Position numbers and translations under genes: made by a program. From Gossypium raimondii (lineage: Eukaryota > Streptophyta > Magnoliopsida > Malvales > Malvaceae): a stretch of DNA of 64,000 bases. Location: NCBI RefSeq assembly GCF_025698545.1, contig NC_068576.1, forward strand, positions 53,974,390 through 54,038,389. The letters are read 5' to 3'. A model generated the notes under the pieces. It was given only the letters and a program-made list of their open reading frames with translations. It had not been told where the DNA came from and ran no database searches. This document shows, one piece after another, positions 2,982 through 63,862 of this stretch (positions are counted from its first letter, which is position 1; each line of letters opens with the position of its first letter).

Positions 2982-5408
2982 ATGAAGAAACTAACAGTTA
3001 CTCTCACCCGCCATGGACCCTCCATCAAAGTCCTCATATCTCAAAATCTCCCCCCTCAAGCTCTCAAAGCTTCTCTCTCTCCACACTCTCCGTTCCTCAC
3101 TGACCAAATCTACTCTCATTTCATCAAATCAGGCCATTCTCTGGACCCCTTTCTCTCCACCACTCTCATCTCCCACTTCGCCAAACATGGTGACTTCTCA
3201 CGCGCCCTTTCCTTCTTTCTCGACAACCCCAACCCCGATACAATCTCTTTCAACTCACTCATCTCTGGTTTCGCTCGTTTTGGCCGAGCCGGGCCGGTGC
3301 TTGGGTTGTTTAATGAGTTGAGGCATTTGGGGTTGAAGCCTGACGTGTTCACGTTGAGCAGTTTAGTTAAAGGGTGTGAGAGAATAGAAGAAAACGAGAT
3401 TGTTCATGGGGTTTGTTTGAGATTGGGGTTTGGAAATGGGGCTTTTGTGGTTAGCGGATTGATTGAGAATTATGCTAAAAGTGGGGACTTGGTTTCAGCT
3501 GAGAAGTGTTTTAGAGAGTGTTTCGATGTTGATAATGTTGTTCTAACGGCTATGATTTGTTGTTATTTTTGGAATGGGGAATTCGATAAGGGTAGACAAG
3601 TTTTTATGAAACTGAGGGATTTGGGATTTGAATTGAATGAATTTAGCTTGACAGGTTTGATCAGCGGCTTGTTTGATGTAAAAGAAGGTCAACTGATCCA
3701 TGGGGTTGGCTTAAAGATGGGATTTTTATGTGGTGGTTCCCTTCATTTTAACAATGCTGTAATGAGCATGTATGCTAGGTGTGGAAGTAAATTGGACGCT
3801 GTTAAGGTATTCGATGAAATTACTGAACCAGATATTGTCTCATGGACTGAAAGGATAGGAGCAGCTCTTGATAGATTCGAGGCCTTTGGAATTTTTAATA
3901 GTTTACGTCGTAAAGGTTTGGGTGTTAATGAATATACAATGACCAATGTCTTGTCTGCTGTTGCAGGAGAGGGGTTGTCGTGTTTAGGGAGGCAAATCCA
4001 AGCAGTTTGTCAGAAGGAAGGGTATTTGAAAGTGGTTTTTGTTGGCAATGCGTTGATTTCTATGTATAGTAAGTGTGGGAAAATGGATGATGCGAGGTGC
4101 ATTTTTGATGATATGGTCTTTCAGGATTCTGTGTCCTGGAATTCACTGATTGCTGGATATTCGGATAATGGATTTGTTAGTCTTGCTCTTAAGATGTTCT
4201 CTGATATGCGTGGTCATAATGTTGAAGTGAATTGTTATACCCTCGCTAGCATTCTTGAAGTGGCGTCTGACTTGAACTCTTTGCACCTTGCAGTGCAGAT
4301 ACATTCCTATATGATTAAATGTGGATTCATGTCGGATGACTATGTGGTGTCTTGCTTGATAGCAACGTATGGGAAGTGCGGCAGCTGTAACGAGTCAAGA
4401 AGGGTATTTTCTGATGTTGATAAGACAAGTGTCATGCATCTTAATGCAATGTTGAATACTTTGGTTAATGCTGATTGTCATGTTGATAGTCTAGATCTCT
4501 TCCGAAACACAGTGGATTCCAAACTTGAAGTAGACAGCAAAACTTTTAGCATCGTTCTTAAAGCTTGCAGTGCTATGACAGATTTGGAACAGGGAAGAGG
4601 CATTCACTCCCTTGCTCTTAAATCTGGATTTCATCAAGATTGCTTTGTCGAGACTGCTGTTATTGACCTTTGCTGCAAGTGTGGAAACATAAGTGATGCA
4701 GAGAGGGCTTTTAGATATGCATCTGTTGACAACTTGGCTGCATGGAATGCAATGATAACAGGATATGCTCAACATGGTTGCTATAATGAGGCTTTCAAAC
4801 TTTATGATAGAATGACTGTATGTAGAATTGAACCTGATGAGATAACTTATCTTGGACTCCTTACTTCATGCTGCCATGCAGGACTACTGCAAGAAGCACA
4901 GAGTTACATGAACTCTATGGTTGAGTGTCATGGTCTAATCCCACATTTAGAACATTACGCTTGCTTGGTTGATCTGCTTGGCCGAGTAGGTCTCCTGGAA
5001 GATGCAAAGAAGACCATAGATGAAATGCCTATCGAACCAGATGCTCAAATATGGCAGATTCTGCTATCTGCATGCAACATCCATGGAAATTTTGATATGG
5101 GAAGAGTTGCAGCCACCAAACTTCTTGAACTGCAGCCTGATAATGAATCTGCCTATATTCTTCTTTCGAATCTCTGTGCTTCAGCTGGTATGTGGAATGC
5201 TGTCAGAAAATTGAGAAGAGAAATGAAGGAAAAACTAGTTTCCAAGGAACCGGGTTCTAGTTGGATTCAACTAAGAGGATCCATGCATTACTTTTTTGCT
5301 GATGATCTGTTGCACCCTGAACATAAAGCAATATTTTTGGAGCTGTCAAAGTTGTATGAACATATGCAAGATTCAAAGACAAATGGTAATTTTTTATTGG
5401 ACTTATGA
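2982..5408 (+). CDS. Pentatricopeptide repeat protein, PLS class with E/E+ tail, no DYW domain
   Basis: Single uninterrupted frame of 808 codons. Degenerate about 35-residue PPR units run from about residue 40 to 720, with the usual landmarks: NALISMYSKCG near residue 360, VSWNSLIAGY near 385, AAWNAMITGYAQHG near 590 and the LVDLLGR unit near 665. After the repeats comes an E-type region containing GSSWIQL and HYFFADDLLHP, and the protein stops without a DYW cytidine-deaminase domain. Such proteins bind organelle RNA site-specifically and usually support C-to-U editing with a DYW partner. No typical targeting peptide is obvious, though the first 25 residues are basic and hydroxylated. An out-of-frame ATG sits at 2978, 4 nt before the chosen start. 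Absence of introns is normal for this family. The RNA target cannot be read from sequence here. Confidence 0.93.
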   Translation: MKKLTVTLTRHGPSIKVLISQNLPPQALKASLSPHSPFLTDQIYSHFIKSGHSLDPFLSTTLISHFAKHGDFSRALSFFLDNPNPDTISFNSLISGFARFGRAGPVLGLFNELRHLGLKPDVFTLSSLVKGCERIEENEIVHGVCLRLGFGNGAFVVSGLIENYAKSGDLVSAEKCFRECFDVDNVVLTAMICCYFWNGEFDKGRQVFMKLRDLGFELNEFSLTGLISGLFDVKEGQLIHGVGLKMGFLCGGSLHFNNAVMSMYARCGSKLDAVKVFDEITEPDIVSWTERIGAALDRFEAFGIFNSLRRKGLGVNEYTMTNVLSAVAGEGLSCLGRQIQAVCQKEGYLKVVFVGNALISMYSKCGKMDDARCIFDDMVFQDSVSWNSLIAGYSDNGFVSLALKMFSDMRGHNVEVNCYTLASILEVASDLNSLHLAVQIHSYMIKCGFMSDDYVVSCLIATYGKCGSCNESRRVFSDVDKTSVMHLNAMLNTLVNADCHVDSLDLFRNTVDSKLEVDSKTFSIVLKACSAMTDLEQGRGIHSLALKSGFHQDCFVETAVIDLCCKCGNISDAERAFRYASVDNLAAWNAMITGYAQHGCYNEAFKLYDRMTVCRIEPDEITYLGLLTSCCHAGLLQEAQSYMNSMVECHGLIPHLEHYACLVDLLGRVGLLEDAKKTIDEMPIEPDAQIWQILLSACNIHGNFDMGRVAATKLLELQPDNESAYILLSNLCASAGMWNAVRKLRREMKEKLVSKEPGSSWIQLRGSMHYFFADDLLHPEHKAIFLELSKLYEHMQDSKTNGNFLLDL

Positions 5409-29545: not shown

Positions 29546-30769
29546 GTATTGGGTTTTGTTGCACAAATCATTCAGTTTTCCATCTTGCTTTTTAAGCTAC
29601 TCTTGATTTTCCTAAATCAATATCATTTTTTCCCTTGTAGAGATTTCACATACTTGGATTTTTACTTCCTCAAGAGGAGTAAAGCATGTTGAAGAATGAG
29701 GCTAACCTTGAGACACTTGCAAATTATGAATTAGTTTCCCACATGGCTTCGAATAATGGTTGCTCCTTCAAACCAATCCATTTCATTGCTTTTGACGATA
29801 CAAAGACAGTCTCCAATTAGTACCTATGTCCCCACTTGGTACAAAATGTACAAGTAGACTAAACACAGTAATAAATTTTTTTAACTCTCACTAGACTGGT
29901 ACCTCAATCGGTTCTTAGTCCAACTAGTTTGATTGATCGATCTAGTCTGGTTCAGAAAACATTGTTTGTGACACAAACTCAATCAAACACTTTATTTATA
30001 GTATAAATTTTAAAAAATAAAAACTAGTGAAAAGAATGCATATTATGTAACACCTCTCACTCGGTCCAAGTAAGAGATGTTACATTTAAACACTAAACTC
30101 ACCACTTAAATAACAATTCTTAAAAGAAAATAGAAGTTTTATTTTTTAAATAAGGAATAAATCTTAAAATTATACATGAACTTTAATTTAATGTGCAATT
30201 TGATACATGAATTTGAAGTTGGTGCAATTATATACATGAAACTTTGACTATAGTTCAAATGTATACTATGAAATTTTAATTTTTATTCAATCATACATAT
30301 TTAAAGAAATAAATACATCAATTTATTTTTATATTAGATAAATATAATTATATTTGATGTAATATATAAATATAAAATGATGTTATACCAATAATTATGT
30401 TAATAATTTGTGAAAATTGAATCAAATCAAAATATATAAAATTATACAAAATCAAAATACATATATAATTTTGAAATTTATACCTAAAAATTCATGTATA
30501 GTTGCATATTTATAGAGGAATTTTGGGAAAAAAATATTAATAATAAAATAACACTGACTGAGTGCCAAGTCAGGGCTCCAAAGAAGGAAGAAAGAACGGG
30601 TCGTCGTCCCCGACAATTCCACCTCCATAAATTTCGCTCCCGTTATTTAACTCCCTAACCCCTTCTCCTTTTTAACCTTAAACACCGTCCCTTTTCCCCA
30701 TCCCACTCCCTGTTTCTTCTTCCCTTCTTTTCATTGGCTTTCAATTTATCCAAATATCTTCCAACTAAG
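29546..30769. other. Spacer with a possible MITE, upstream of the ROH1-family gene
   Basis: At about 30160-30520 the arms AAATTATACATGAACTTTAA and (other strand) CAACTATACATGAATTTTTA face each other, with an AT-rich core, suggesting a long-TIR MITE. The segment 30560-30769 is less AT-rich and pyrimidine-rich, likely promoter and leader of the next gene. A CCCGTTATTTAACTCCC near 30641 is a weak TATA candidate. Confidence 0.4.
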
Positions 30770-31921
30770 ATGACGGGAACCGACCAAAGCTCCTTCTTGG
30801 GACGAATCAGCATCAGGCGGAACCAAGTCAACGCCATGGAAGGGTACCACGAGCAAGAGATTGAAGACCTAGAGCTTTTCCAAAGGCAGCTCTCCGATCG
30901 CTTTACCGAGCTCTTATCTGCCCCCGACGACGCCCCCACTGAAGCCTTTCTCTCTATTTCCTGGATACGCAAGCTGCTCGACGTGTTCCTTTGTTGCGAA
31001 ACCGAATGCAAGGCAATTCTCTTGATGGAACGGGACGCGGCTCAGATCTCCAAACCCCCTCTCGATCGCTTGATTCCCGAACTTCTCGAACGCGTCGTTA
31101 AAGCTATGGACATTTGTAATGCGGTAACCAACGGGGTGGAGTTGGTCAGGCATTGCCAAAAGCTGGCGGAGATTGCCGTTTCGGCTTTGGAACAAAAACC
31201 TTTCGGTGAAGGACAAGCGAGGAGGGCCAAAAAAGCGTTGGTTTCACTAATGTCGGCAATGCACGTCGACGACAAAGAAAGCTCCGTTCAGAAAACGGCG
31301 GAGCGGAGCTGGTCGTTCGGCCGCCGAAGTGGTAATAAAGATCGACACCATGGACATTACAGGTCACTTTCTTGGCAGGTAGCCAAGCATTGGTCAGCAT
31401 CCAAACAGATTCACGCCATGACCATGAACCTCGCTGCTCCACGTGGACCGGAGGCCTCCTGTTTGCCCGCCCCGGTTTACATACTGAGCTTGATTATAGT
31501 TTTTGTTATGTGGGTATTGATTGCTGCGATACCTTGTCAAGAGAGGAGCGGTTTGACAACTCATCTTCCGATTAATAAGCACGTGAACTGGACCCATAGT
31601 CTGGCCGGTATACATGATAAAATCGGTGAGGAGTGGAAGAAGAAGGAGAAGAAAGGGATGGCTGGGTTGTTATACGAGATGCAGAAGATGGAGAAACTCG
31701 GCCAGAGTTTGATTGAATTCACTGACTCATACCAGTTCCCCGGAGAGAAAGAGAAATCGGACGAAGTGGCTGCACAAGTGGCGGAGCTGGCGGAGGTTTG
31801 TCGGAGAATGGATGAAGGGTTGGTGCCTTTGCAGATGCTGATTAGGGAAGCGTTTCATAGGTTGGTAAGAAACAGAACTGAGTTTCTCGATGTGTTGGAA
31901 CAAGGTGCCCCGGTCGTGTAA
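30770..31921 (+). CDS. ROH1/BYPASS1-family protein (DUF793)
   Basis: Intronless frame of 383 residues from the ATG at 30770. The frame is open 36 nt further upstream but without an ATG. Features match the plant ROH1/BPS1 family: an N-terminal IRRNQV-MEG-HEQEIEDLELFQ helix (about residues 12-45), a KLLDVFLCCETECKAIL segment (about 75-95), a hydrophobic stretch around residues 235-258 (YILSLIIVFVMWVLIAAIPC) and a C-terminal VPLQMLIREAFHRLVRNRTE helix. Arabidopsis ROH1 was found as an interactor of an EXO70 exocyst subunit, and BPS1 restrains production of a root-derived growth signal. The biochemical role is unknown. The 3' UTR has a 12-14 base C-run at 31981-31994. MDAR follows 1.3 kb downstream on the same strand, matching the order I recall in Arabidopsis. 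Confidence 0.88.
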   Translation: MTGTDQSSFLGRISIRRNQVNAMEGYHEQEIEDLELFQRQLSDRFTELLSAPDDAPTEAFLSISWIRKLLDVFLCCETECKAILLMERDAAQISKPPLDRLIPELLERVVKAMDICNAVTNGVELVRHCQKLAEIAVSALEQKPFGEGQARRAKKALVSLMSAMHVDDKESSVQKTAERSWSFGRRSGNKDRHHGHYRSLSWQVAKHWSASKQIHAMTMNLAAPRGPEASCLPAPVYILSLIIVFVMWVLIAAIPCQERSGLTTHLPINKHVNWTHSLAGIHDKIGEEWKKKEKKGMAGLLYEMQKMEKLGQSLIEFTDSYQFPGEKEKSDEVAAQVAELAEVCRRMDEGLVPLQMLIREAFHRLVRNRTEFLDVLEQGAPVV

Positions 31922-40286: not shown

Positions 40287-42345
40287 TTAAGTCCTGGCAC
40301 GGACAAGGGGTGATTGAGGTATGGGAGAGTGAGGAGACATCATGTTTTGGGACATGAAATCGTCCCTTCTTCGAGATAAGCTGAGTTTAAGGCTGGCTCG
40401 TCTGCATAGTTTACGAGGAACCATGGCCTCGTTGTGCTTATGCATAAAGGTCGTTATTCTCAACAAAGCAACTTCCATGGTATTGTCATCCATGTTAGCA
40501 AAGCAAACCCTGAACCAACCCGGCTCGTCACAATGGAAAGAAGAACCAGGGGAAACATTGAGCTTAACTTCATTGATAATCACTCGCCACAAGTCCATTT
40601 CAGCATCGAACGTCTTCTCTTTTAGGAGCTTACGAAGATCCATCCATATGAACAATCCAGCATTGCTCTTCAACGAACCGATACCGACTTGAGAAAGACT
40701 CAAAGTGAAATACTTGTGCCTTTTGAACAACTGCTCCTTGCTCTCCACAATGAAACTGTCCACAAAATCATCATCGGACAGCATCGTCGCGATTAAATGC
40801 TGAGTTTGCGAAGACACCAGTCCAAAGCTAGACATTTTCCGAGCACAGCTCACCACTGCATCGTTGTACGAGTATACTATGCCGACTCTGAAACCAGGGA
40901 ACCCCATGTCCTTAGAAAGACTATACACAATGTGGATGAGATCACGATTACACTCCACTTCCTCAATAATCTCCGATATACTAACGAACTCGGGTTCCAT
41001 GAAAACTGTGGCAGCATATATCTCATCACCGATTAAGTGTATGTTCTTTTCGTTTATGAACTTTACAATACCCTTCAATGTGTCTCGATCCAAGATAGTA
41101 CCTAAAGGATTTGATGGATTGGTTATGAGCAAACCCTTGACTCTCAAGTTAGCTTCTTTTGCCTTTTCATATGCAGCTTCCAAGGCAGCTCTAGTGATCT
41201 TGAAATTATTGGAACTTTCACAAACGACAGGAACAAGTTCAACCCCTGTTCTCCACCTCAAGTCACGATCAAATCTGCAAATCAATGGTGAATATTTGAG
41301 TAATCAAAAGTTGGCAAGAACTGTTCAAATTATTGTCCACCATCCTTGAAGGTTCTAAAGTTTTCTATAACTATTGAAGAGTAACTCTGTACTTGATAAT
41401 TATACAGGTCCTTTCAATGAATAAATACACACAGATGGGCCAATAGCTATAAAGTCTATGATATTAAAACAAAGAGACAACGTCGCTTTCAATGAATCCC
41501 ATCCGTGGAATATGGATAGAAAATTAGAAGAAAAAAAAAAACTTGGATGTCAAGATTTTTCTTCTTCAGTTGCATCGTCACATTTGACGTTATTGCTATG
41601 TTGACTATGATTTTTTTTTTCTATCAATGATCTTAGTCATAATTTAATTATTTATTAGTAATTCCTCCACCTTCTTCCTTACTTTCCGCGTGTGTCTGGG
41701 TTAGGGACAAAGGTGAAAAAAATTCAAAACCCAAATTAAACGATCCAAAGGAAAACCCCAAAATGAAAATGTGAAAAAATGATGCATTACCCTGGATAAT
41801 AAGGAGTGGGAACCAGAAAAGCTTCACCGGGATCAGCCAAGCAAAAAGCAACCATCTCATGAGCTCCGGTGGCTCCACCGCTCATAACAATGCGGTCTGG
41901 GTCAAATTTCACTCGACCACCCCTCACTTTCCCCATAAATTTTGCAACAGCCTCTCTGAACTCAGGCATCCCATGATAGTCTTGGAACAGAGCCGTCTCC
42001 TCGAATTTGTTCACACCTTCTGCACTGCACAGAGACGCTTCTGGATGTTCCATGACCCACTTTTTTATAAAGTTAAAGCAAAGCTGCAGAGATTAATAGC
42101 AAAGAAACCATCAGTATCTCCATAGATAAGATAAGCAGTCATGTTACTGTAAAATTCATGGAAGGGAGGGGAGGGGGTCTTTAACTCTTTATAGTTACCT
42201 GATTCTCAGCTAGACCCATCTGAATGACACCATCAGGTCTATCAATGGGATGAAAAGGGTTGGTCTCATATGCCTTCCATCCATCGAAATAAGGTGAGTC
42301 TTCACCATGACCATTACCAGTTGCAATCTTAGATATGGCCACCAT
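40287..42345 (-). CDS. ACS: 1-aminocyclopropane-1-carboxylate synthase, type I
   Basis: Three exons (complement of 42199-42345, 41791-42083, 40287-41274) give 475 residues, within the usual ACS range. The PLP enzyme converts S-adenosylmethionine to ACC, the rate-limiting step of ethylene synthesis, in the cytosol. Landmarks: GLAENQ at the first exon end, [36 protein letters not shown], and [14 protein letters not shown], whose Lys (about residue 268) forms the PLP Schiff base. The C terminus keeps RRRDDF followed by three Ser-Pro sites ([15 protein letters not shown]), the type I tail (ACS2/ACS6-like) targeted by MAP kinases and calcium-dependent kinases to stabilise the protein. A minus-strand TATA box lies about 175 nt upstream, and a solo LTR begins 718 bp before the ATG. 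Confidence 0.95.
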
Positions 42346-49551: not shown

Positions 49552-50481
49552 TTATGTAGTTGAAGCCTTAGCTTGCTTGCATCCATGTTCTGGGATTAGA
49601 TGTTCAGTGGCAGCTCTCTTCGGTCTCAACTGCAATGGAAAAGCAGTAAGAAACTGCATTAAACACCCCACACCTACTCTCATATTTTATGCATGCGTCC
49701 ATGAATTTCTATATGTGACTAGGAAGTTATTTAGATGCAGTCTTATAACATGAAAGAATCATAAAAAAAAAGCTACTAACCTTCTCCTCGTCATGCTGAT
49801 AGAAATTTCTAGTAAGTAAATTTTGTCTCAGTAGTTATAACTGTTAGAAGTGTTTGAGATATCAGTCACGGATAAAGAAAATGTTCCTAGAAGGATTAAA
49901 ACAAAAAACTATTCATGATAAAATTCTAGACTTCAAAGTCAATGAGCTATGGCACTCTGAATCAGGATGCAATTTGAAGTAGTTCTTTTATATTTGTAGC
50001 TCAGACAGTTCACATGGAGAAATAAGATTGTCAACATTTTCATTCCAATTGACAGACTTCAGAGAACAATTTAAATGATTTAAGTGATACAATCGTTGTA
50101 TTCTGATTACAAATCTCCATTCTCTGTTGATTTCAAAACAAAACTGTCTGACAGAACGTGAACAAGGCTAAATCAGTTCCACCTTTTCAGAGGAAGATAA
50201 GAAAAAGTAGTTGCAAATTGCAATGCCATGTACCAAGTGCTGCATAAATTTTAGTTTCTCAACTGTATCCATCTATTTGAAGCCCAATTGTCACAACAGT
50301 ATCTTTGTCGAACTAATCAAATCAAAATATCAAGTTCCAGTTCAGACTAATCAAATCAAATATCAAGTTCCAGTTCAGACATATCAAGATACTTTTCCAG
50401 CAATCATGGTCTCAAACACAAGACAACATTCAACATCCAAGAAAGGTATCCTAGCCAAATAATTATTATGGTATATGGCAT

Positions 50482-50975
50482 TGTTGAAGTTGGCTTTCAT
50501 GCAGCACAAGAAGCAGCACAAGGAGCAGATCAAGCTGCCCGAGCCATGCAAATTGCAGCTGGAGTACATGTTGACATTTTGTTACTTTTCAGCTTATGTT
50601 TTGTTGCTTAGTTAGATTTGAACCAAGTTTGTAATGAGTTTGTTGTAAGTTGGTGCTGATAAGATTTGATAAGTCAGCACTACAAGATGTACAAGCAATG
50701 TTTTATTAGTTTCAAGGCAATGTTAGTGGAGTTAGGTGAGTTTAGGTAAATTTTTGCTGTAATCAACTTCACAATCACTTGATATATGTAATGTTTTACA
50801 TTTTCAAATATGAATGAATAAATTTTTCATCAAATTCTCCCTTAGTTCTCTGCTTAAAATTCTTCTTTATTTTGTTCTTCATACCCGATTCTGCTTGTTT
50901 TGCTTAACAAGTCATTGAGCCTTCTAGCTCAAGTATCTGTTAACTTCATTCATCTTGCATTCTTAGTTCTAACAA
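50482..50975 (+). repeat. 5' LTR of the copia element
   Basis: 494 bp, beginning TGTTGAAGTTGG and ending TTCTAACA. A TATATG promoter-like motif and an AATAAA signal near the CAAATATGAATGAATAAA stretch (about 50806-50823) suit an LTR promoter and polyadenylation region. Confidence 0.93.
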
Positions 50976-50977
50976 TT

Positions 50978-50990
50978 GGTATCTAGAACT
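50978..50990 (+). other. Primer-binding site of the copia element
   Basis: TGGTATCTAGAAC starts 2 nt after the LTR and resembles the initiator-Met tRNA complement TGGTATCAGAGC used by plant copia elements. Confidence 0.7.
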
Positions 50991-52800
50991 CATCTTCTTA
51001 GTGGACCTGTCATTTTTCAATCCTTAAAACCATGTCTTCATTTGGATTCTCTCCAGCTCCACCACCAATGTTCAATGGAGAAAGCTATCACATTTGGGTA
51101 GTAAAAATGAAGACCTACCTGTAGGCATTTGAACTATGGGAGGTTGTCAATTCATACGTTGAACCAGCACCTCTAAAAGCCAATCCCACTGTGGCTCAGA
51201 TCAGGCAACACATAGATGAAGGAACCAAAAGACACAAAGCCATGTCATGCATCCAAAACAGTGTGTCTGATGTGATTTTTACAAGGATCATGGCTTGTGA
51301 GTCTCCAAAACAAGCCTGGGATAGACTGAAGGAGGAGTTTCAAGGGATTGAAAGAACGAGACAGCAACAACTACTGAATTTGAGAAGGGACTTTAAAATT
51401 TTGAAGATGAAGGAAGAAGAAATAGTAAAATAATATTCAGAAAGAAACATGGATGTTGTGAACAGCATCAGATTGCTTGGGGATCAGTTTAGTGAAGCAA
51501 GAATTGTAGAGAAGGTTATCTCAACCTTGCTTGAGAGATATGAAGCTAAGATTTTTATCCTGAAAGATTCAAGAAATCTGTCAAGCATCTCCTTGACTGA
51601 GCTGACCAATACTCTCTATGCTCAGGAACAGAGAAGAGCTAGCAAGCAGGAGGAGCATCAATAAGGTGCCTTCTAAGCTAAGAGCAGACATGCCTCGAGC
51701 TCCTCTGGTCATAAAGGTAAGAAGACCTGGTCAGACAAGCCTAGAAGAGATGGAGCAAGAATAAGGTATTCACCTTGCCCACATTACAAAAGGCTCAGCC
51801 ATCTAGAAGCAAACTGCTAGTTCAGGCCTGATGTGCAGTGCAAATTTTGCAAAAGGATGGGTCATTTTGAGAAGGTTTGCAGAAACAAAGGCAAGTTGAA
51901 GCAAAATCAACCTCAACAGCTTAGAGCTAAAGCTCAACTGGCAGAAGAAGGTAGTGATCAAGAAGAGCAAGTCTTTGTTGTCTCATGCTCAGCTGCCAAA
52001 AGAAAAGCCACAAAAGGATGGTTGATTGACAGTGGCTGCACAAACCACATGACCCCTCATGTTGCTATCTTTAAGAACATAGATAGAAGCATCAAAACAA
52101 GGGTAAAAGTTGGCAATGGACACTTCATCAAAGCAGAAGGCAAGGGAGATGTGCTGATTGACACTCCTACAGGTACCAAACTTGTTTCTAATGTCTTGTT
52201 TGTGCTTGAAATTGACAGAAATCTGCTTAGTATTGCTCAGTTGCTTGAAAAAGGATACTCGGTTGTATTCAAAGGCAAAGAATGCCTAATTAAAGATCTA
52301 AGAGGATTTAAACTCATGTCAGTGACCATGGCTGACAAAAGTTTTGTAGTAGATTGAAACAAGAGTTCAAACAGTGCCTATAAAGCTGTCTTAAATGAGT
52401 CTAAGCTATGGCACAAAAGGCTAGGTCATGCAAACTACAAGTCACTGGTTCAGCTGACCAAAAGGGACTTGGTTGAAAACTTCTCCAAATCAATCGAGAA
52501 AGAAGATGTTTGTGAAGTGTGTCAGCTAGGAAAGCAAGCTAGACTATCATTTCCTTTGAACAATGCCTAGAGAGCCTTTGAAAGGTTGCAACTAGTCCAC
52601 ACTGATGTGTATTGCCCTATGAAAACACAGTCCTTGAATGGTAGTAGGTATTTCATCCTTTTCATTGATGATTTCTTGAGGTTTTGCTGGGTTTACTTCT
52701 TAAAGAACAAGTCAGAAGTGGCATCAGTATTTTGGAAGTTCAAGGCTGTAGCAAAAACAGAATCAGGTTGCAAGTTCAAGACACTAAGGTCTGATAATGG

Positions 52801-55800
52801 CACAGTGTAACACCCCTAACCCGTATCCGTCGTCGGAATAGGGTTACGAAGCATTACTGGAATATACAGATCTAGTAAACAGATATTTCATTTTATACAG
52901 TATTCATGTCATAAATCAAACATAAAGTCCCTTATATGAACCCTCGAGGTTCAAAACATGCATTAGAAATAAGTCAGACTAAACCGGGTACTCAGAGAAT
53001 TTTTCGCAAAATCTCAAAATTTTTCCTAAGTGTAGGGGTCACACGCCCATGTCTCAGGCCGTGTAACTCTCTGACTTGGGTCACACGGCCAAGCCACACG
53101 CCCGTGTGCTAGGCCATGTGTAAATACCTGAGCATTCTATTTTGAAATTTTAAAGATGCAAGAGACACACGGCCAAGTAACACGCCCATGTGTTAGGCTG
53201 TGTGTCACACACGACTGAGACACGCGCCCTTGTCTCTGCCCATGTAGATGAAAATAGGCTATTTTCCAAGCTATATTTCTCACCTTATTTTGTCATCCTC
53301 CTACACCAACACTTTAACACATTCATAAGCTATTATAGGTCATTTAACCCAACTCAAAATCAAGTCCTATACATGATATAGTACCTGATATAATCAAGTA
53401 TACGCACTTACTTAAATAACCAAGTTCACATATATGCATATCTTATCAAATATGGTAACTTAATTCAATCATCAATATGCCAATATAATTTCTATCAATC
53501 AACCATTTCAAACACATACCAAACATATCCATCACAAGTCATTCCAATGGCTAGTTACAATTAAAGTATCTATATGCCGATATTGGCTAATTAACCTACA
53601 CATGTCATTATAACCATAATTAATTTACCATAAATATACCGAAATAGGTTGATGGATAACGTGAGTGATCTCCGCCAAGCTTTCAATCCAACGAGCCTCC
53701 GAATTACTATAGAACAGGGAAAATAAAACAAAGTAAGCATGAAATGCTTAGTAAGTTTGTATAACATGGTAATTAACTTACCACTCATTTAAATTCAATA
53801 TAAACATACAAGACACATTCAATCAACTTGATCACGAGCCCTAACACATATCCTCATCACCCTTGTTAGTAATATATTTCATATAAATATTAAGAAACAT
53901 GTATGGGCTCAACAATAATTAGATTTCCATGTACATATACTTTTCACATCATGTATTCATATAACATATACAAATCATATCCTTGTATTTGAATTACAAT
54001 TTCCTAATAATTTGTCTTGAGTCCAGATTATTTCATGTCGGAACTTTGCCCATTAAATCATTTGAAATGTCAGTGTCACACGGGTAATACACTCAAGGTG
54101 TATAAATCTATAATCATGGATGAACATATTCATCAAACAAATTCCATATTCATATATTATCATCTTGTATTTCCATATATCATGTATCATCATTTTCATG
54201 TATTTAAGGTAGATACGTGTATTAATTCATTTCATGTTCATATTTTCTCATGTCAAGATTTTGCCCGTTGAATCATTGAAAACATTGATGGATACACAAG
54301 TAGTACACTCGAAGGGTACAAATCAGAAATCCATCAATTCATATTCAAGAGTGCTTTTTAAAGCACCTAATCGGGAAATTCTCTCTCAAGCCATATAACA
54401 GGAAGCTCACAAAGAGCCATTAATTGGGAAGCTCACAAAGAGCCTATCTGAAAGCTTATCCGGGCTATATAACAGGAACTCACACAGAGCCATAATCAGG
54501 AAGTTCACAAAGAACTTTTAATCAGGAAGCTCACGAAGAGCCTTTAAACGGGAAACTCACGAAGAGCCATTAATTAGGAGCTCCGGATAGCCACATATCG
54601 GGAAGTTCAAGCGAGCCATATCAGGACACTCACAAAGAGTTGCGTTTGTGTCTGCAACATATGCAGGATCACAACCGATCATAAAACAGGACGCTCACAA
54701 AAAGCTGCGGTGGTCCGCAACACATGCAGGATCACTACCGATCAGGATGCTTGCAGGAACCATATAACGGGAAGCTCGAGAGGGCTTATAACGGGATGCT
54801 TGTAGGAGCTGTGGTCTGTCCGCAATACATGCAGGATCACAACCAATCGGGAAACCCTGTATCCATCGAATTCCATTATTCAAACGAGATTTAATATTTG
54901 TCGGGATTTGTCGGATATTTAACCAATTTCATATATTTGGAACTTATAAAATTCACATACACAACATTTAATTCAAGCATATAAATATACACAATTTAGT
55001 TACACGAACTTACCTCGACAAATGTTCGTGTACGTAAAATCTACTAATTCGACATTTTCTCTTTTCCTCGTTCTAACTCCGAATTTGGTCTATCTGAATC
55101 TATATGAATGAATTTAACATTAATTCATGTTCATTTCAATTCAATTCACATCTTAGGCAAAATTACCATTTTACCCGTAGACTTTTAATTAATGACGATT
55201 TCATCCCTAGGCTCGAAAAATGAAATTCATGCACTTTACAAAAGCCTAGCCTATTTTTACATGTAAAATTTACAGCTCATGCATTTCATAAAATTTAGAA
55301 TTTTTCCATGAATTTTACATATTTTCAATTTAGTCCTTAAATCATAATTTCATCAAAATTCCCTTTACAAAAGTTATTTATCTATCAACAACCTTTCATT
55401 TTCTACCATAAAAATTCATAATTCATCTATGTTCATCCATGGCAAAACCCTAGTTCTTTGATAACTTTACAAATTAGTCCCCGAGATAGCTAGATTAAGC
55501 TATTACGATCTTGGAAACATAAAAACCATTAAAAATATGACAAGAAAACATACCTAATTGATCAAAATAAGCTTGCTTGAGCTATTTTCTCTTAGCTAGG
55601 GTTTCCATGGAAATAATTTGGGAAAGATGAAGAAAAAAATGATATTTTCATTAATTAATTAATTATCATCTTTTATTTTTTTTACTTTCCAATTTCATCA
55701 TTTTCTTTATTGTATTTTCCATGGATGAATCATCATCCTTAACCACTAAGCATTTTTAAATGGTCTATTTACCATATAAAGACCTCAACTTTAAATTTCT

Positions 55801-56032
55801 ATAGTTATTTAATCCTTTTAGCTATTAGAACTCAACTTTTTCACTTTGTGCAATTTGGTCTTTTATCAAATTAAATATGTAATCGGTAAAATTTCTTTAC
55901 GAAATTTTTATACGACATTACTATCATACTATAGACCATAAAATAATATAAAAATAATTTTCCTTCTGAAATCATATTTGTGATCCCAAAACTATTGTTA
56001 TGATTTTACCGAAAATGGGCTGTTACACACAG
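52801..56032. mobile_element. Solo LTR-like insertion in the copia integrase (3222 bp)
   Basis: Body 52806-56027, starting TGTAACACCCCTAACCCG and ending GGGCTGTTACA, with a perfect 5-bp duplication CACAG (52801-52805 and 56028-56032). No coding domain, primer-binding site or polypurine tract. Its left end is the reverse complement of the right-end motif of the 43063 and 58057 elements, so it lies in the opposite orientation to them. GC-rich ACACGGCC/GGCCGTGT clusters lie at about 53038-53245. The small frames inside (for example 53190-53381 and 54017-54271) are not genes. Confidence 0.8.
54360..54860. repeat. Degenerate short tandem repeats inside the 52806-56027 LTR
   Basis: Many copies of a GGGAAGCTCACAAAGAGCC-like unit at about 20-30 bp spacing, followed by two or three longer units containing GCAACACATGCAGGATCAC and ACCGATCAGG. 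The copies differ by substitutions and spacer length. Confidence 0.75.
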
Positions 56033-58051
56033 AATACACTTCAGCCAAGTTTCAAGGCTTTTGTGATGAAGCAGGTATCAAGCACCAGCTCACGAAGACC
56101 TACACACCTCAGTAAAATGGTGTTAGTGAGAGAAAGAATAGAAGCTTGTTGGATATGGCAAGATGTTTGTTGTTTGAGAGAAATTTGCCCAAGACCTTGT
56201 GGGCTGAGACAATTAACACTGCTGTATATCTTCAAAACAGGCTACCAACCAAAGCATTGGTTCAAAAAACTCCATTTGATGCCTAGTTTGGGCTCAAACC
56301 ATCACTTGTTCACCTGAAGGTCTTTGGCTGCATATGTTATACACATATTCCAGCAGTAAAAAGGGACAAATTAGCCAATAAGGCTCAACCTGGCATTTTG
56401 ATGGGCTACAGCACTGTGAAGAAAGGGTATAGGATTCTAGATCCTTCATCTAATAGGGTCTTTGTAAGCAGAGATGTAGTCTTTGATGAGAAATCAAGCT
56501 GGAACTGAGATAAAAATGAACCAGAGACTGCTGCTGAAGACCTAGTGTAAGATCAAACTGAAGCTGATCAAAATGATCCTGAAATGGATATTGATGATGT
56601 GCCACTTAGGGGAACCAGACCATTGGTTAAAATATATGAGAAGGCTGATGTGGCTGCTGTTAAACCAAGTTGTTTTGAAGAGGTTGAAGCTCAACAAGGA
56701 TGGAAACAGGCTATGCTCGATGAAATGAGCACAATTGATAAGAGTCAGACTTGGGAGCTAGTTGTTAGACCAGCCAATAGAAAGGTCATAGGAGTGAAGT
56801 GGGTGTTTCGAAATGTTGATGGAACTTTGAACAAGCTGAAGGCAAGCCTGGTAGTGAAAGGATTCAATCAGAAGTATGGCATTGACTACTTTGAGACATT
56901 TGTACAAGTGGCCAGACTTGACACAATCAGGCTGTTGGTTGCTTTGGTCGCATAGAAGCAATGGAAGATACATCAACTCGATGTAAAGTCTGCCTTCCTT
57001 AATGGTTTTCTTGATGATGAGATTTATGTTGAGTAGCCTGATGGTTTCAAAGTTGTTGGTAAAGAGGATAAAGTGTATAAGCTGAAAAAGGCCTTGTATG
57101 GCTTGAAACAAGCACCAAGAGTCTAGTATGAAAGAATCGATAGCTACCTAGCTAGTTTAGGGTTCGAGAGAAGCATCAGTGAGCCAACCTTGCATGTGAA
57201 AAAGGAAGGTGATAAAACACAACTCATAGTCTCCTTGTATGTGGATGACCTGCTGGTGACAGGAGGAAACAATGCCATATTGGCTAATTTTAAAGGAAAA
57301 ATGAAGAACATGTTCGAGATGTCAGACTTGGAAGAAATGACTTACTTCCTTGGCATGGAAATGTCACAGACTCAGCAAGGTATTTTCTTAAGCCAAAAGG
57401 CTTTTGCCTTGAAGATTCTAAACAGATTCTCTATGGAAAATTGTAAGGCTACAAGCACACCAGTTGTTGTTGGAGAAAAGTTGACCAGCCAATATGATTT
57501 TGAGAAAGTAGCTAAGTCAACCTACAGGAGTTTGGTTGGATGTTTGCTCTATTTGACAGCCACGAGACCAGACATCATGTTTGTTGTAAGTTTGCTATCT
57601 AGATTCATGCATTGCTGCAACGTAAAGCATTTCCAAGTTGCCAAAAGAGTCCTCAAGTACATCAAAGGTACATTGAACTTTGGAATGATGTTCACCAAAG
57701 TTGATAGCATGAAGTTACTTGGTTATGCTGATAGTGATTGGGCTGGATCGATAGATGATATGAAGAGCACCCTAAGGTATCTGTTTACCCTTAGTTCAGC
57801 CATTTTTTGTTGGAGTTTGAAGAAGCAAAATGTTGTTGCTCAATCAACTGCTGAGGCAGGATATGTAGCAACTGCAGGAGCTATTAACCAAGCTATTTGG
57901 TTAAGAAAAATCATGGCCGATTTGAATCTACACTAAAGGGAAGAAACAGAGATTAAATGTGACAACAAATCTGCTGTTGCAATTGCAAAGAATCTAGTAT
58001 TCCATGGGAAAACAAAGCATTTCAAGATAAAGTTTCATTTTGTTAGGGAAT

Positions 58052-61000
58052 GCAACTGTAATAGCCCAATTTTAGGCCCATTCGGAACAGTGGTTTCGGG
58101 ACCACAAATCCGACGAGAAAAAGAAATGTAAAAAAAATGTAATGCCCTGAATTTTCAAAGGTGTCAGAACGGTGATTCGAGATCACTAAATTTGACAAAT
58201 GAGTAAAAAATATTATTAATTTAGTGAGTATAAGTTAAATGGAAGTTAGGAAAATTTTTTAAATAGTGAACAGTGCACTAGAAATAAATATTAAAATAAT
58301 TAGAATCGAAAACGAGGTATTGAGACATCGAAGATTTTAAACCGAGCCATAAATATTTTTATAAATATTTATGGAGTGTTAAAAAGTTAGTATTAAACTT
58401 TCGTCAAGAAATTTTAAAGTTCCGATAATTAATTGAACAAAAAGGACTAAATTGTAACAAATGCAAAATTATAGGAAATGATTAAATAGCTTAAATGATA
58501 AAAGGAAGATGGCTTAAAAGGAAAATAGGCCCAAGGTCTATTTGGGCTGGACGGCTAAGGCATGAAATCAACAAGAAAGTAAGAAGAACTAAGGGCAAAA
58601 TTAGAATATTGCAAAATTTGCTTAATAAAGTTAGGACCAAAGTGGAATTATCTAGATTTCTCTTCATTTTTCTGCATTCTCATCAGCTAAAACACCATGG
58701 AAGGGTTTCTTCAAGCTGGTTCTTCATATTTTTACTGCAAGTAAGTTCAATTCTTGATCATTTCTTGAAATTTTTGTGTTTTTGTGACTTTTACAACTAG
58801 GCCCACTTGTTGAATTCATTAGTTTTTGATTCTATGAAAGAAGTTTAAAGTTGCTATGAATATTTTCTGGAATTTTATGATTTTATATAATGAAATTGAA
58901 GCTTTAATTTGTTTATGAGATGATTTTATTAGGTAATTTCTATAGAAATTGATTTGTAGGACCTAATTGTGAAAATGTTTGGAATTAAAGTCTAGTGCTA
59001 AAATTCTGATTTCCAAAGGTTATAAAGTAGTTTAAAGTGATAGAATAAAGTGTTGATAGAGAAAAATCAGCTCAATTGAGAGGTTAATTGAGCAGGGATG
59101 AAATTATCATTTATTGAAAGCTTAGGGGAAAAATGGCAATTAACATCATGCACTAAAACAGTTTTGGATAGCAGCAGTAGTCTAACTTTGAAAAATCACC
59201 AGAAATTTTAGAGATTGAATTAGAGGATGAAACGGTGTAAGCAATGGAATTGTAAATCATGAGATATAATAGATTTTGTGAGACAAGGTCAGAATGAATT
59301 CGGGTTCCCTTTTTTGGATTTGGAAAATCATTAAAAATTGTAAAAAAATGATTATGAGTTATAATCTATATGGTTAGAATCTTTAATGAGTCTATTTTCA
59401 TAAAAAACAAACGGAAACATCATCCAAATTTTGTACAATGAGGTAATTCATTTTTAGTGAAGAGTGGTCGGAACTGTCAGACAGCAAAACAGAGGAAACT
59501 TAAAAGAATAAACTATATTATTTGGCTGAGCCAAAAATTCTGAAAATTTTATGGTAAGAAGATATGTGAGTATAGTTTCAAGGAAAATTAACGGATCTTA
59601 ATTTGGAGCTCTGTATCTCCAGATAAAAAATAATTTAGTGACTCTGACTCGGATAAACAGCTTTGAATATACATGTGAGTGAATAGTGAAATTATAGTTA
59701 ATGTTGATTAAGTGTGATATACACATTAAGGATTTGGAATGGAGAGGAGGAGGAGGAAAATTGGGAAATAGATGAATGATTTGTGTATAATTGGTCATAT
59801 GTTTAATTATAATTGATAAACGATGAAATAGATATGATGCTTATATTTGTGCATTATTGGTCATGGTTTAAGCTCATGTGTGAAAATAAAGTTTCATAGT
59901 ATGTGTGTAAGGTATATTCGGTATATGATTTGGCATGAAATAGTGTCATGAATGATTTATGAATTAACACATGTTGGTAAGCCTGATACATGAATAAATG
60001 TTGTGCTCATCCATGCTTATAATGCTTATGCTATATGTGTATTTGGCTAACATATTTGGTATACATGCTTAGGCTTTGGCCAAGTAGTGGCTAGACTATG
60101 CCACGTTAAATTTATAAGTTATGCATTGAAATGGTTTATCATGTGGTTAGCCCCAAAAAGAGTTATGTTTAAATACACTAGCTTGCGACTATGGTTGAAT
60201 GATATGTTTATATCTTGTGTGATGTGTATAGAAAACGAGTGTGGAAAGATAATGAAAGGTAAGTTCATATGGCTGAAATTTAATGATTAAATGTTAATTT
60301 CATGAATTATATAATGTATGATGAAATATATATTTATTGATGAAATGAGAATAAAATAAAAATGTGAAAACTGAATAAATGATCAAATTGAGCGGAACGC
60401 CGGATTTGAGTACTTCTGATCAGTGACAAGTGACAAAGTGATAAGTGGTAGCTTTAGCTACACTTATCTAATCAAGTGACAAAGTGATAAGTGGTAGTTT
60501 TAGCTACACTTATCTGATCAAGTGACAAAGTGATAAGTGGTAGCTTTAGCTACACTTATCTGATCAAGTGACAAAGTGATAAGTGGTAGCTTTAGCTACT
60601 TTTATCTGATCAAGTGACAAAGTGATAAGTGGTAGCCTAGCTACACTTATCTGATCAGGGACAAGTGATAAGTGATCATACGTAAGACCATAGTTATACT
60701 ATGGTAAAGTGAAAGTGAAGTACTCAATTTTCCGTAACCGTTCCCTAATTTGATTAAGGATGGTAAGTGACAAATGGGCCCAAAAGAATTAAAGTAAATG
60801 GATAAGTGGTAGTGTATTTATACCAGGATGATGTTATTTTAAAGTGATGTTTTCATAGCAAAATTGAGAATTTCATAAATGTGTTAATGAATGGTATAAT
60901 CGATAAACGTTGATTTAAATGGTAAATACGTATTAGTGTTAAAATTAGTGACATTGAATTGTACTTGAATTAAATGGGAATTGGTAGTGATATGATTTAA

Positions 61001-61272
61001 ATTGTGAGCATGAGAAATTGCGAATTGAATGAAATGGAAATAAAACATTGAATTGCATGAGTATGTATCGGGTCTCGTAGGCCCTAATTATTATGATTAT
61101 AATATTTTGAGGATATATTGTGAAAAGTTATAGAAGCATGTTAATTATTTTGAAAGTTTTAATTTAGATGAAATTTTTTAACTCGGTTAAATACGTTTAC
61201 AAATGTATGTGTTTTAGTAATGCCTCGTACTCTATTCCGGTGTTGGATACGGGTAAGGGGTGTTACAGGAAC
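58052..61272. mobile_element. Solo LTR-like insertion in the copia 3' coding region (3211 bp)
   Basis: Body 58057-61267, starting TGTAATAGCCCAATTTT and ending GATACGGGTAAGGGGTGTTACA, with a duplication GCAAC (58052-58056) / GGAAC (61268-61272), one mismatch. It begins like the reverse complement of the 52806 element's right end (TGTAAYAGCCC, then a ...TTTYGGGAYCACAAAT motif), and the two are almost the same length, so they are probably one family in opposite orientations. The first 80 bp look partly duplicated (a second TGTAATGCCC at 58140). No coding content is seen inside. Confidence 0.75.
60428..60656. repeat. Five 46-bp tandem repeats, each able to form a hairpin
   Basis: Units start AAGTGACAAAGTGATAAGTG and contain the inverted pair ATAAGTGGTAGCT / AGCTACACTTAT around a 2-base centre. 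Five copies are present. The last is one base shorter, and single substitutions mark the others. Confidence 0.9.
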
Positions 61273-61376
61273 AATCTTAAGAAGTTAGACTGATTCATTG
61301 CAATTCTGAAGATCAGCTTACTAATATCTTGACAAAGCCTCTTTGTGTGTCAGCTAAATTGGGAGTATGCAATATG

Positions 61377-61390
61377 CAAGGCAAGGAGGA
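61377..61390 (+). other. Polypurine tract of the copia element
   Basis: CAAGGCAAGGAGGA ends one base before the 3' LTR, the expected place and composition for the plus-strand primer. Confidence 0.75.
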
Positions 61391-61391
61391 T

Positions 61392-61884
61392 TGTTGAAGT
61401 TGGCTTTCATGCAGCACAAGAAGTAGCACAAGGAGCAGATCAAGCTGCCCGAGCCATGCAAATTGCAGCTGGAGTACATGTTGACATTTTGTTACTTTTC
61501 AGCTTATGTTTTGTTGTGTAGTTAGATTTGAACCAAGTTTGTAATGAGTTTGTTGTAAGTTGGTGCTGATAAGATTTGATAAATCAGCACAACAAGATGT
61601 ACAAGCAATGTTTTATTAGTTTCAAGGTAATGTTAGTGGAGTTAGGTGAGTTTAGGTAAATTTTTGCTGTAATCAACTTCACAATCACTTGATATATGTA
61701 ATGTTTTACATTTTCAAATATGAATGAATAAATTTTTCATCAAATTCTCCCTTAATTCTCTGCTTAAAATTCTGCTTTCTTTTTTTCTTCAAGCCCGATT
61801 CTGCTTGTTTTGCTCAACAAGTCATTGAGCCTTCTAGCTCAAGTCTCTGTTAACTTCATTCATCTTGCATTTTTAGTTCCAACA
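61392..61884 (+). repeat. 3' LTR of the copia element
   Basis: 493 bp, near-identical to the 5' LTR. Visible differences include GCAGCA/GTAGCA near the start and several in the T-rich part at about 61770-61795. Confidence 0.93.
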
Positions 61885-61889
61885 AGCAT

Positions 61890-62062
61890 GAACCGTTAAA
61901 TATATATTATGACCAAGTCACTAAAGCTTGAAAGATTTCACCAACCAAAGGTTAGAACATTGTCACCACAGACAGTTTAAAGTGCTAAGAATATCTCACT
62001 TCCACTTAAAAAGAGATTATTTGACAAGTAAAAACAATGAGGAAGAAATAAATGTTCAATAC
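61890..62062 (-). other. Remainder of DDA1 intron 2 right of the copia element
   Basis: Together with 49841-50476 this would form an ancestral intron of about 0.8 kb. Nothing else recognised. Confidence 0.5.
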
Positions 62063-63075
62063 CTTGATCAGGTGGTGGAGGAGTCTGGCTATGACTAGAG
62101 TGGTAGGTGACAAGCATCAATTTCTAGCCAAAAAGAGATTGTTAGACTATAAAAGAGAAGTGCAATCAATTCTTAATTTCTTATGAAAATAAGGAGCTCA
62201 ATATGAAATTTGTTCAACAGTATAGCATTTCACATGTTGCAACAGATCAAAAGGATTGAATGGCAAGTGAAATTTGTTCTATACCATTTCGACCTTTCAA
62301 GTACTTTGAGCTTAATCGGAACGCTATAACTGATAGGCAATGAACCAATGTAAACTATATAGCCACAGAAAAATAAGCTCTCAACAATCGTGTTAGCTAA
62401 AACATAGTACTTTGTGAATAAGAACCAGTACTACGAACTAAAAATACCGAGTATACAACTAGAAAGCATTTCTCTTAATCATTTTAGCAAACAGGTAATA
62501 ACAAGTATTAGCATTATTTAGATGCGTCGTTATCATCACCATATTATACTCTATTGAATCAGATTGGATCAACATCCTAAAAATAAGTGTATCTTGCAAT
62601 GCAAGAGACAAAATCAGTAAGCTGATATATTCATTTGTAACCACAAACAACTTTATCCAAATTAAGGTCCAAATTCAATAATTTGATAATGATTAAAACG
62701 AAATCAACTAATCGTAACCCAGAAACCTAAGCATAAGAATGTAATAATATTGCAGCAAAGGAACATCTGAAAGAAACAACTTATTCAGTTCAAACACGAA
62801 GATAAATATCGATACGTTTACGTAATTTGGAAAAATGGGGGCAGCTACTTACACAAGGATTAGAAGGATCTGAGGGACGAAGTTGATTGAAGTTGAAAGG
62901 GTCAAACGACGGCAAGACACCGAGCAAAGACCCCATTGCTGGTTTCTGGTCAACAACCAAAGAATCAATGGAGACTAATAGAGAGATTGGAACAAGAGAC
63001 AAAATTGATAGAGAAACCACGAAAGTGGATGAGCTGGTTCTAGAAACAGCCTTGTGTTTTGTGTTAGTGCTGGAT

Positions 63076-63607: not shown

Positions 63608-63862
63608 AAAAATAGGTAAATTGGTCCCTATACATTAAATCAAAGAGCAAATTAATCTTTATGTTAAAAATTTTATCCATTTTTATTATTAAAAATTAGT
63701 CCCTATAAGTCAGAATGAGGTACACCTGACATGCCACGTGTAACTTTTTGGTTATTCTGTTATCAGGGCTAGTTTTTAATAATAGAAATACATGAAATTT
63801 TTACTAGAAAGGACTAATTTGCTATTCAATCTAACATATAAGAACTAATTTACCCATTTTTT
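63608..63862. mobile_element. Long-TIR MITE
   Basis: The left arm (AATAGGTAAATTGGTCCCTA, then a region around CAAAGAGCAAATTAATC) and the right arm read on the other strand (AATGGGTAAATTAGTTCTTA, then GAATAGCAAATTAGTCC) align as inverted repeats for about 100 bp. The centre carries CATGCCACGTGTAAC. This arrangement is a common plant MITE type. The exact target duplication was not resolved. Confidence 0.7.

Follow-up and report, generated by a model that had tools for sequence, protein, structure and literature searches.

The stretch of DNA analysed here, called the window, comprises 64,000 nt of the Gossypium raimondii genome (contig NC_068576.1, positions 53,974,390 to 54,038,389). It contains, on the minus strand, a four-exon gene resembling plant DDA1, which encodes a small ubiquitin-ligase cofactor, with a frameshift in exon 3 and with a second intron that has received a Copia retrotransposon carrying two further insertions. 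Two intact DDA1 genes were found on other contigs of the same genome, and in what follows the window segment is called C12, and the other two segments C8 and C2, after their contigs.

Gene structure and the break in exon 3

Exon 1 of the DDA1-like gene (62853..62936, 84 nt) encodes 28 amino acids, the counterpart of the DDB1-binding part of the protein. Exon 2 (62063..62123, 61 nt) contains numerous altered residues, exon 3 (49781..49840) has 60 nt where 62 are expected, and exon 4 (49552..49629, 78 nt) includes the original stop codon. The introns measure 729, 12,222 (intron 2, 49841..62062, minus strand) and 151 nt, with GT/AG intact at all six splice borders. When an X is placed at the interrupted codon, the four-exon product matches the PF10172 profile over its full length (positions 1-66, E 1.1e-17), and its score of 64.4 bits, for a cut-off of 24, assigns it to the DDA1 family. 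The unbridged 58-residue product alone gives 52.7 bits (E 5e-14), and no PF10172 match was obtained for the 38 residues downstream of the break, scanned alone.

The plant DDA1a lineage is described as consisting of the DDA1 domain alone (PMC10794948). The window copy resembles this lineage in having the four-exon layout of the C8 and C2 genes, a DDA1 domain, and no SAP domain found among the residues scanned; it differs by its frameshift and by the alteration of several residues that C8 and C2 have in common. Within the window, only chance-level matches to a second DDA1 copy or a second exon 3 were seen. Collections of bacterial and archaeal genomes, of viruses and of plasmids yielded no confirmed relative, the PDB set searched with the window protein yielded no DDA1, and two peptide strings looked up in literature text had no match.

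Exon 3 has 62 nt in both the C8 and the C2 copies, and comparison with them places the two missing bases in the A-run at 49821-49824. The window reading frame runs for 58 codons and then meets a TAG, 28 nt ahead of the exon 3/4 junction, so that a full-length open reading frame is lost. The alternative of a single extra base was considered as well, and gave a lower Pfam score (60.1 vs 64.4 bits); the 62-nt exons of the paralogues also favour two missing bases.

Could alternative splicing save the frame? With 10, 7, 6, 7, 3 and 12 GT/AG choices near the six sites, a frame open to the original stop results from 2,300 four-exon combinations, each of which uses two or more non-canonical sites. Exactly two such sites are used in 23 combinations, two of which retain the FYQHDEEK part of exon 3. 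This possibility is thus not supported. Exons 1 and 4 can be joined in frame to encode 53 amino acids, but this requires skipping both middle exons.

A preliminary description of this DNA had proposed four minus-strand exons spelling DDA1, separated by 12.2 kb between exons 2 and 3, an exon 3 two bases short, and a stop after about 58 residues. All of this is borne out, including the exon borders. The same description attributed the break to a loss in an A-run near 49817, and was right about the A-run but a few bases off in its position. It also called for a count of intact paralogues in the genome, of which two were found.

Insertions in intron 2

The Copia element (50482..61884, plus strand) is antisense to the gene and measures 4,960 nt without its two insertions. 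Alignment of the pair defines long terminal repeats (LTRs) with TG..CA ends at 50482..50974 and 61392..61884, and the element is flanked by a target duplication, GGCAT at 50477..50481 and AGCAT at 61885-61889. The coding parts are distributed over several separate frames, in which gag and pol domains of the Copia type (Retrotran_gag_2, Pol_BBD and RVT_2) were detected as separately scanned pieces; together with the paired LTRs and the target duplication, these domains identify the element as a Copia. The two LTRs are 97% alike, with 16 differences over 496 aligned positions (Kimura two-parameter distance 0.033). Across the five rates tried, this divergence corresponds to an age of 1.3-6.6 million years (My), and to about 4.7 My at the substitution rate of 3.48e-9 reported for cotton (PMC7203012).

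The two insertions within the Copia occupy 52806..56027 (3,222 nt, between CACAG and CACAG, longest stop-to-stop frame 86 amino acids) and 58057..61267 (3,211 nt, between GCAAC and GGAAC, longest frame 101 amino acids). Both have TGTAA..TTACA ends, which are mutually related, and they lie in opposite orientation. To judge from these features, they look like solo LTRs, possibly of Ty3/gypsy elements. The three target duplications match at four of five positions for the Copia, and at five and four of five for the insertions; random pairs of 5-mers from the window would do so jointly with a chance of about 1e-6. Leaving out the Copia and one target duplication, intron 2 measures 814 nt, and it has thus grown 15-fold. 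The arrangement resembles that of known nested LTR retrotransposons in plant introns, with a Copia that received later insertions, target duplications, and an orientation antisense to the gene; nothing notable sets it apart, the insertions here being about 3.2 kb long and solo-LTR-like.

Two further observations concern these elements. A 46-bp unit is repeated in tandem 5.5 times at 60427-60674, inside the second insertion. A related Copia, with protein pieces that are mostly 50-85% identical, lies upstream of the C8 DDA1 gene (C8, about 38688929-38692744) and ends some 9 kb away from it.

Intact copies and coding constraint

Our family search of the genome, in which 18 candidates were scored, gave PF10172 matches at two other loci, one on C8 and one on C2. 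The window copy itself was absent from these matches, so that further decayed copies could go unnoticed and the copy number found is a lower bound. Both copies found are intact: the C8 gene has exons of 84/61/62/78 nt and an open frame of 94 residues, and the C2 gene exons of 84/61/62/84 nt and an open frame of 96 residues. Their PF10172 scores are 100.6 bits for C8 and 100.4 for C2, and human DDA1 reaches 105.4, as against 64.4 for the window copy. Exon 1 has lost about one third of its bits (22.1 vs 32.3 in C8 and 33.0 in C2); for exons 2-3 the score, with one X included, is 36.5 against 58.8 in C8 and 59.0 in C2, a loss of about four tenths.

All three segments carry an aminotransferase gene on the DDA1 strand, downstream of DDA1. 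Its exon in the window (40290..41303, minus strand) served as synteny anchor and as control gene. Stretches that match C2 in conserved order also lie just beyond the window, at 64.8-67.9 and 73.3-74.5 kb in its coordinates. We infer that the three segments are ancient duplicates, for which polyploidy in the cotton lineage would be the origin. Intron 2 of both the C8 and the C2 genes aligns to the window intron on either side of the Copia, the blocks flanking the site being separated by merely tens of bases. As the flanks align without the element, the C8 and C2 copies show an empty Copia site.

Two stretches of the remaining intron 2 (49841-50481 and 61890-62062) are alike between C2 and the window, one over 122 bp with 84% identity and the other over 146 bp with 76%. 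For copies whose synonymous divergence (dS) is near 0.4, this is high, and may possibly reflect a conserved noncoding element or simply the choice of the best stretch. Upstream of the gene, a 16-nt sequence, GGCTG.TTCTAGAACC (window 63036-63051), is retained in all three copies, 115 nt ahead of the start in the window, 122 nt in C8 and 127 nt in C2, despite the decay of the window copy.

Codons of the window, C8 and C2 copies were compared over 93 positions, the interrupted codon being dropped from 94. The ratio of nonsynonymous to synonymous divergence is 0.17 between C8 and C2, 0.42 between the window and C8, and 0.31 between the window and C2. Branch counts, which omit six positions differing in all three copies, attribute 29 changes to the window branch (10 synonymous and 19 nonsynonymous), compared with 16 private changes in C8 (8 nonsynonymous) and 13 in C2 (3 nonsynonymous). 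The pooled C8 and C2 branches, with 18 synonymous and 11 nonsynonymous changes, differ from the window branch (one-sided Fisher test, p 0.032). Maximum likelihood codon models gave the same picture, with a ratio omega of 0.62 on the window branch and 0.19 on the others (likelihood ratio test, p 0.038); among the 300 null replicates of a parametric bootstrap, 13 reached the observed test statistic, and in 8 of these the window branch was the higher one. An omega of 1 on the window branch was not rejected (p 0.29). The nonsynonymous share on this branch is compatible with neutrality (p 0.24-0.43 over three kappa values), whereas that of the other branches departs from it (p 1e-5 to 1e-4), both counts being those before one codon was reassigned. 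Within the limits of a small sample, constraint on the window copy is thus relaxed relative to the intact copies. For the aminotransferase copy of the window, in contrast, omega is 0.09 and a value of 1 is rejected (p 8e-6); this gene is still constrained, and the decay is therefore specific to DDA1 and not segment-wide.

The window changes also have a particular composition: 17 of the 29 are C>T or G>A, with one reverse transition, compared with 9 and 8 of the 29 changes of the other two branches (Fisher p 0.007). A drift to AT without constraint fits this excess. Methylation-driven decay was considered but is not supported, since no enrichment of such changes was seen in CG or CHG contexts (4/39 vs 13/86).

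Probable duplicate loss and competing explanations

The reading that we favour, with a probability of roughly 0.87, is that the window DDA1 is a nonprocessed duplicate pseudogene, produced by ordinary duplicate loss. It has kept its introns, intact paralogues exist in the genome, and it carries a disabling two-base loss relative to both of them. In this it is like other nonprocessed pseudogenes left after polyploidy, with intact relatives, near-neutral codon changes, a frameshift and a constrained neighbour; nothing distinctive separates it from them, and its frame is broken just once. A segment containing DDA1 and the aminotransferase would have been multiplied long ago, of which three copies were found, C12, C8 and C2. 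The DDA1 genes of C8 and C2 would have stayed intact and constrained; that of C12 would have lost constraint, accumulated mainly nonsynonymous changes, and lost two bases in the A-run of exon 3. The Copia would have inserted antisense in its intron 2, and later have taken the two other LTR-element insertions. We infer that the C12 copy is without function.

Several points weigh against this reading. The sample of just 93 codons keeps the p-values modest, and an omega of 0.62 on the window branch would fit either no past constraint or some. Exons 1, 2 and 4 remain open, and GT/AG borders are kept. A 61-bp stretch upstream of the window copy resembles its C8 counterpart (82%, E 8e-10), and weakly that of C2 (E 0.025), so that transcription of the window copy is possible. 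The picture of the segments is not simple either: at 13.8-14.3 kb lies a stretch with matches on C8 and, out of order, on C2. Two other window genes, PPR and ROH1, had no match in the compared parts of C8 (120 kb) and C2 (100 kb), and the synteny is thin. Finally, dS is 0.39-0.44 for DDA1 and 0.73-1.19 for the aminotransferase, and because the two disagree on the age of the duplications, no firm date can be given.

The question arises as to whether the insertions came before or after the decay. The preliminary description had presented a gene split by nested retrotransposons and caught during its loss. In a rival scenario, the gene would have worked until the Copia disturbed its splicing or expression, the frameshift and the other changes following. 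Such a scenario can call on the age of the element (LTR distance 0.033, 1.3-6.6 My, or 4.7 My at the cotton rate) and on the 15-fold growth of intron 2. However, over that age only about five neutral changes are expected in the 279 nt of exons, whereas the window branch has accumulated 29, an excess of about 14 over the mean of C8 and C2. The exon changes thus exceed what the age of the Copia explains, which suggests that constraint was lost first. As a matter of arithmetic, if the omega of the window branch is a mixture of 0.19 and 1, about half of this branch was unconstrained, and at a DDA1 dS near 0.41 this unconstrained span is about 6.6 times the age of the Copia, whatever the rate, an estimate that is rough with 93 codons. 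Moreover, the insertions sit in the intron, outside the exons, and since GT/AG is kept even at the borders of the swollen intron, they need not have blocked splicing. We therefore regard a recent, transposon-driven loss as unlikely. What remains of the preliminary description on this point is the lost duplicate; the changes argue against a gene caught in the act, and against the transposons as the cause. The C12 copy probably lost constraint before the Copia inserted, and the insertions of intron 2 are probably passengers.

Alternatively, the gene could be intact and two A bases lost from the assembly consensus. Long-read sequencing errors fall in homopolymer runs, and the affected site is an A-run. 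But the window PPR gene (2982-5408, an open frame of 2,427 nt and 808 amino acids, with 11 runs of at least five) and the ROH1-like gene (30734-31921, an open frame of 1,188 nt, with 6 such runs) have kept their frames, and runs of up to 14 are present. The decay of exons 1-3 is, besides, independent of the deletion, and an assembly error appears very unlikely.

The truncated product deserves a comment. In human DDA1, residues 1-28 bind DDB1 with an affinity of about 45 nM, much like the full protein, and this binding is abolished by charge changes at Pro9, Asn15 or Phe16 (PMC6288126); the contacts with DDB1 are made by residues 2-19 and 34-49, and those with DET1 by a helix of residues 54-67 (PMC12808801). 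By position only, all three critical residues are retained in the window copy, and the point where its frame breaks corresponds to human residue 52, ahead of the 54-67 helix. Between the stop and the last junction there are 28 nt, fewer than the 50-55 nt of the rule for intron-aided decay in plants (PMC4417159). A 58-residue peptide might accordingly keep the DDB1-binding segment without the DET1-binding helix, escape decay and dampen CRL4-DET1 as a natural competitor, although we hold this to be highly doubtful. The N-terminal part is not clearly spared, and because exon 1 has decayed too, such a DDB1-binding peptide is possible but unsupported; that a truncated 58-residue protein, with both DDB1-contacting stretches, would actually be made and compete for DDB1 is very improbable.

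Ordinary duplicate loss is the most likely account of the locus, a small, clean case with internal controls in the constrained neighbour and the two intact copies. The result speaks against the tempting story of a large transposon insertion breaking a gene; knowledge of DDA1 and of transposons is unchanged by it. A literature search combining DDA1, pseudogene and cotton, which covers only papers with all three words, found no paper.

A last observation concerns the region upstream. About 0.7 kb ahead of the DDA1 start, at 63662-63806, a hairpin matches MIR7502 (RF04225) above the cut-off on both strands, with a folding z of -6.3. The MIR7502 family is reported from Gossypium arboreum (PMC5471329). 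MIR7502-like sequence also occurs at a distance of about 7 kb from the C2 DDA1 gene, where it is found in both orientations, and the matching sequence looks like a repeat of the miniature inverted-repeat transposable element (MITE) type.

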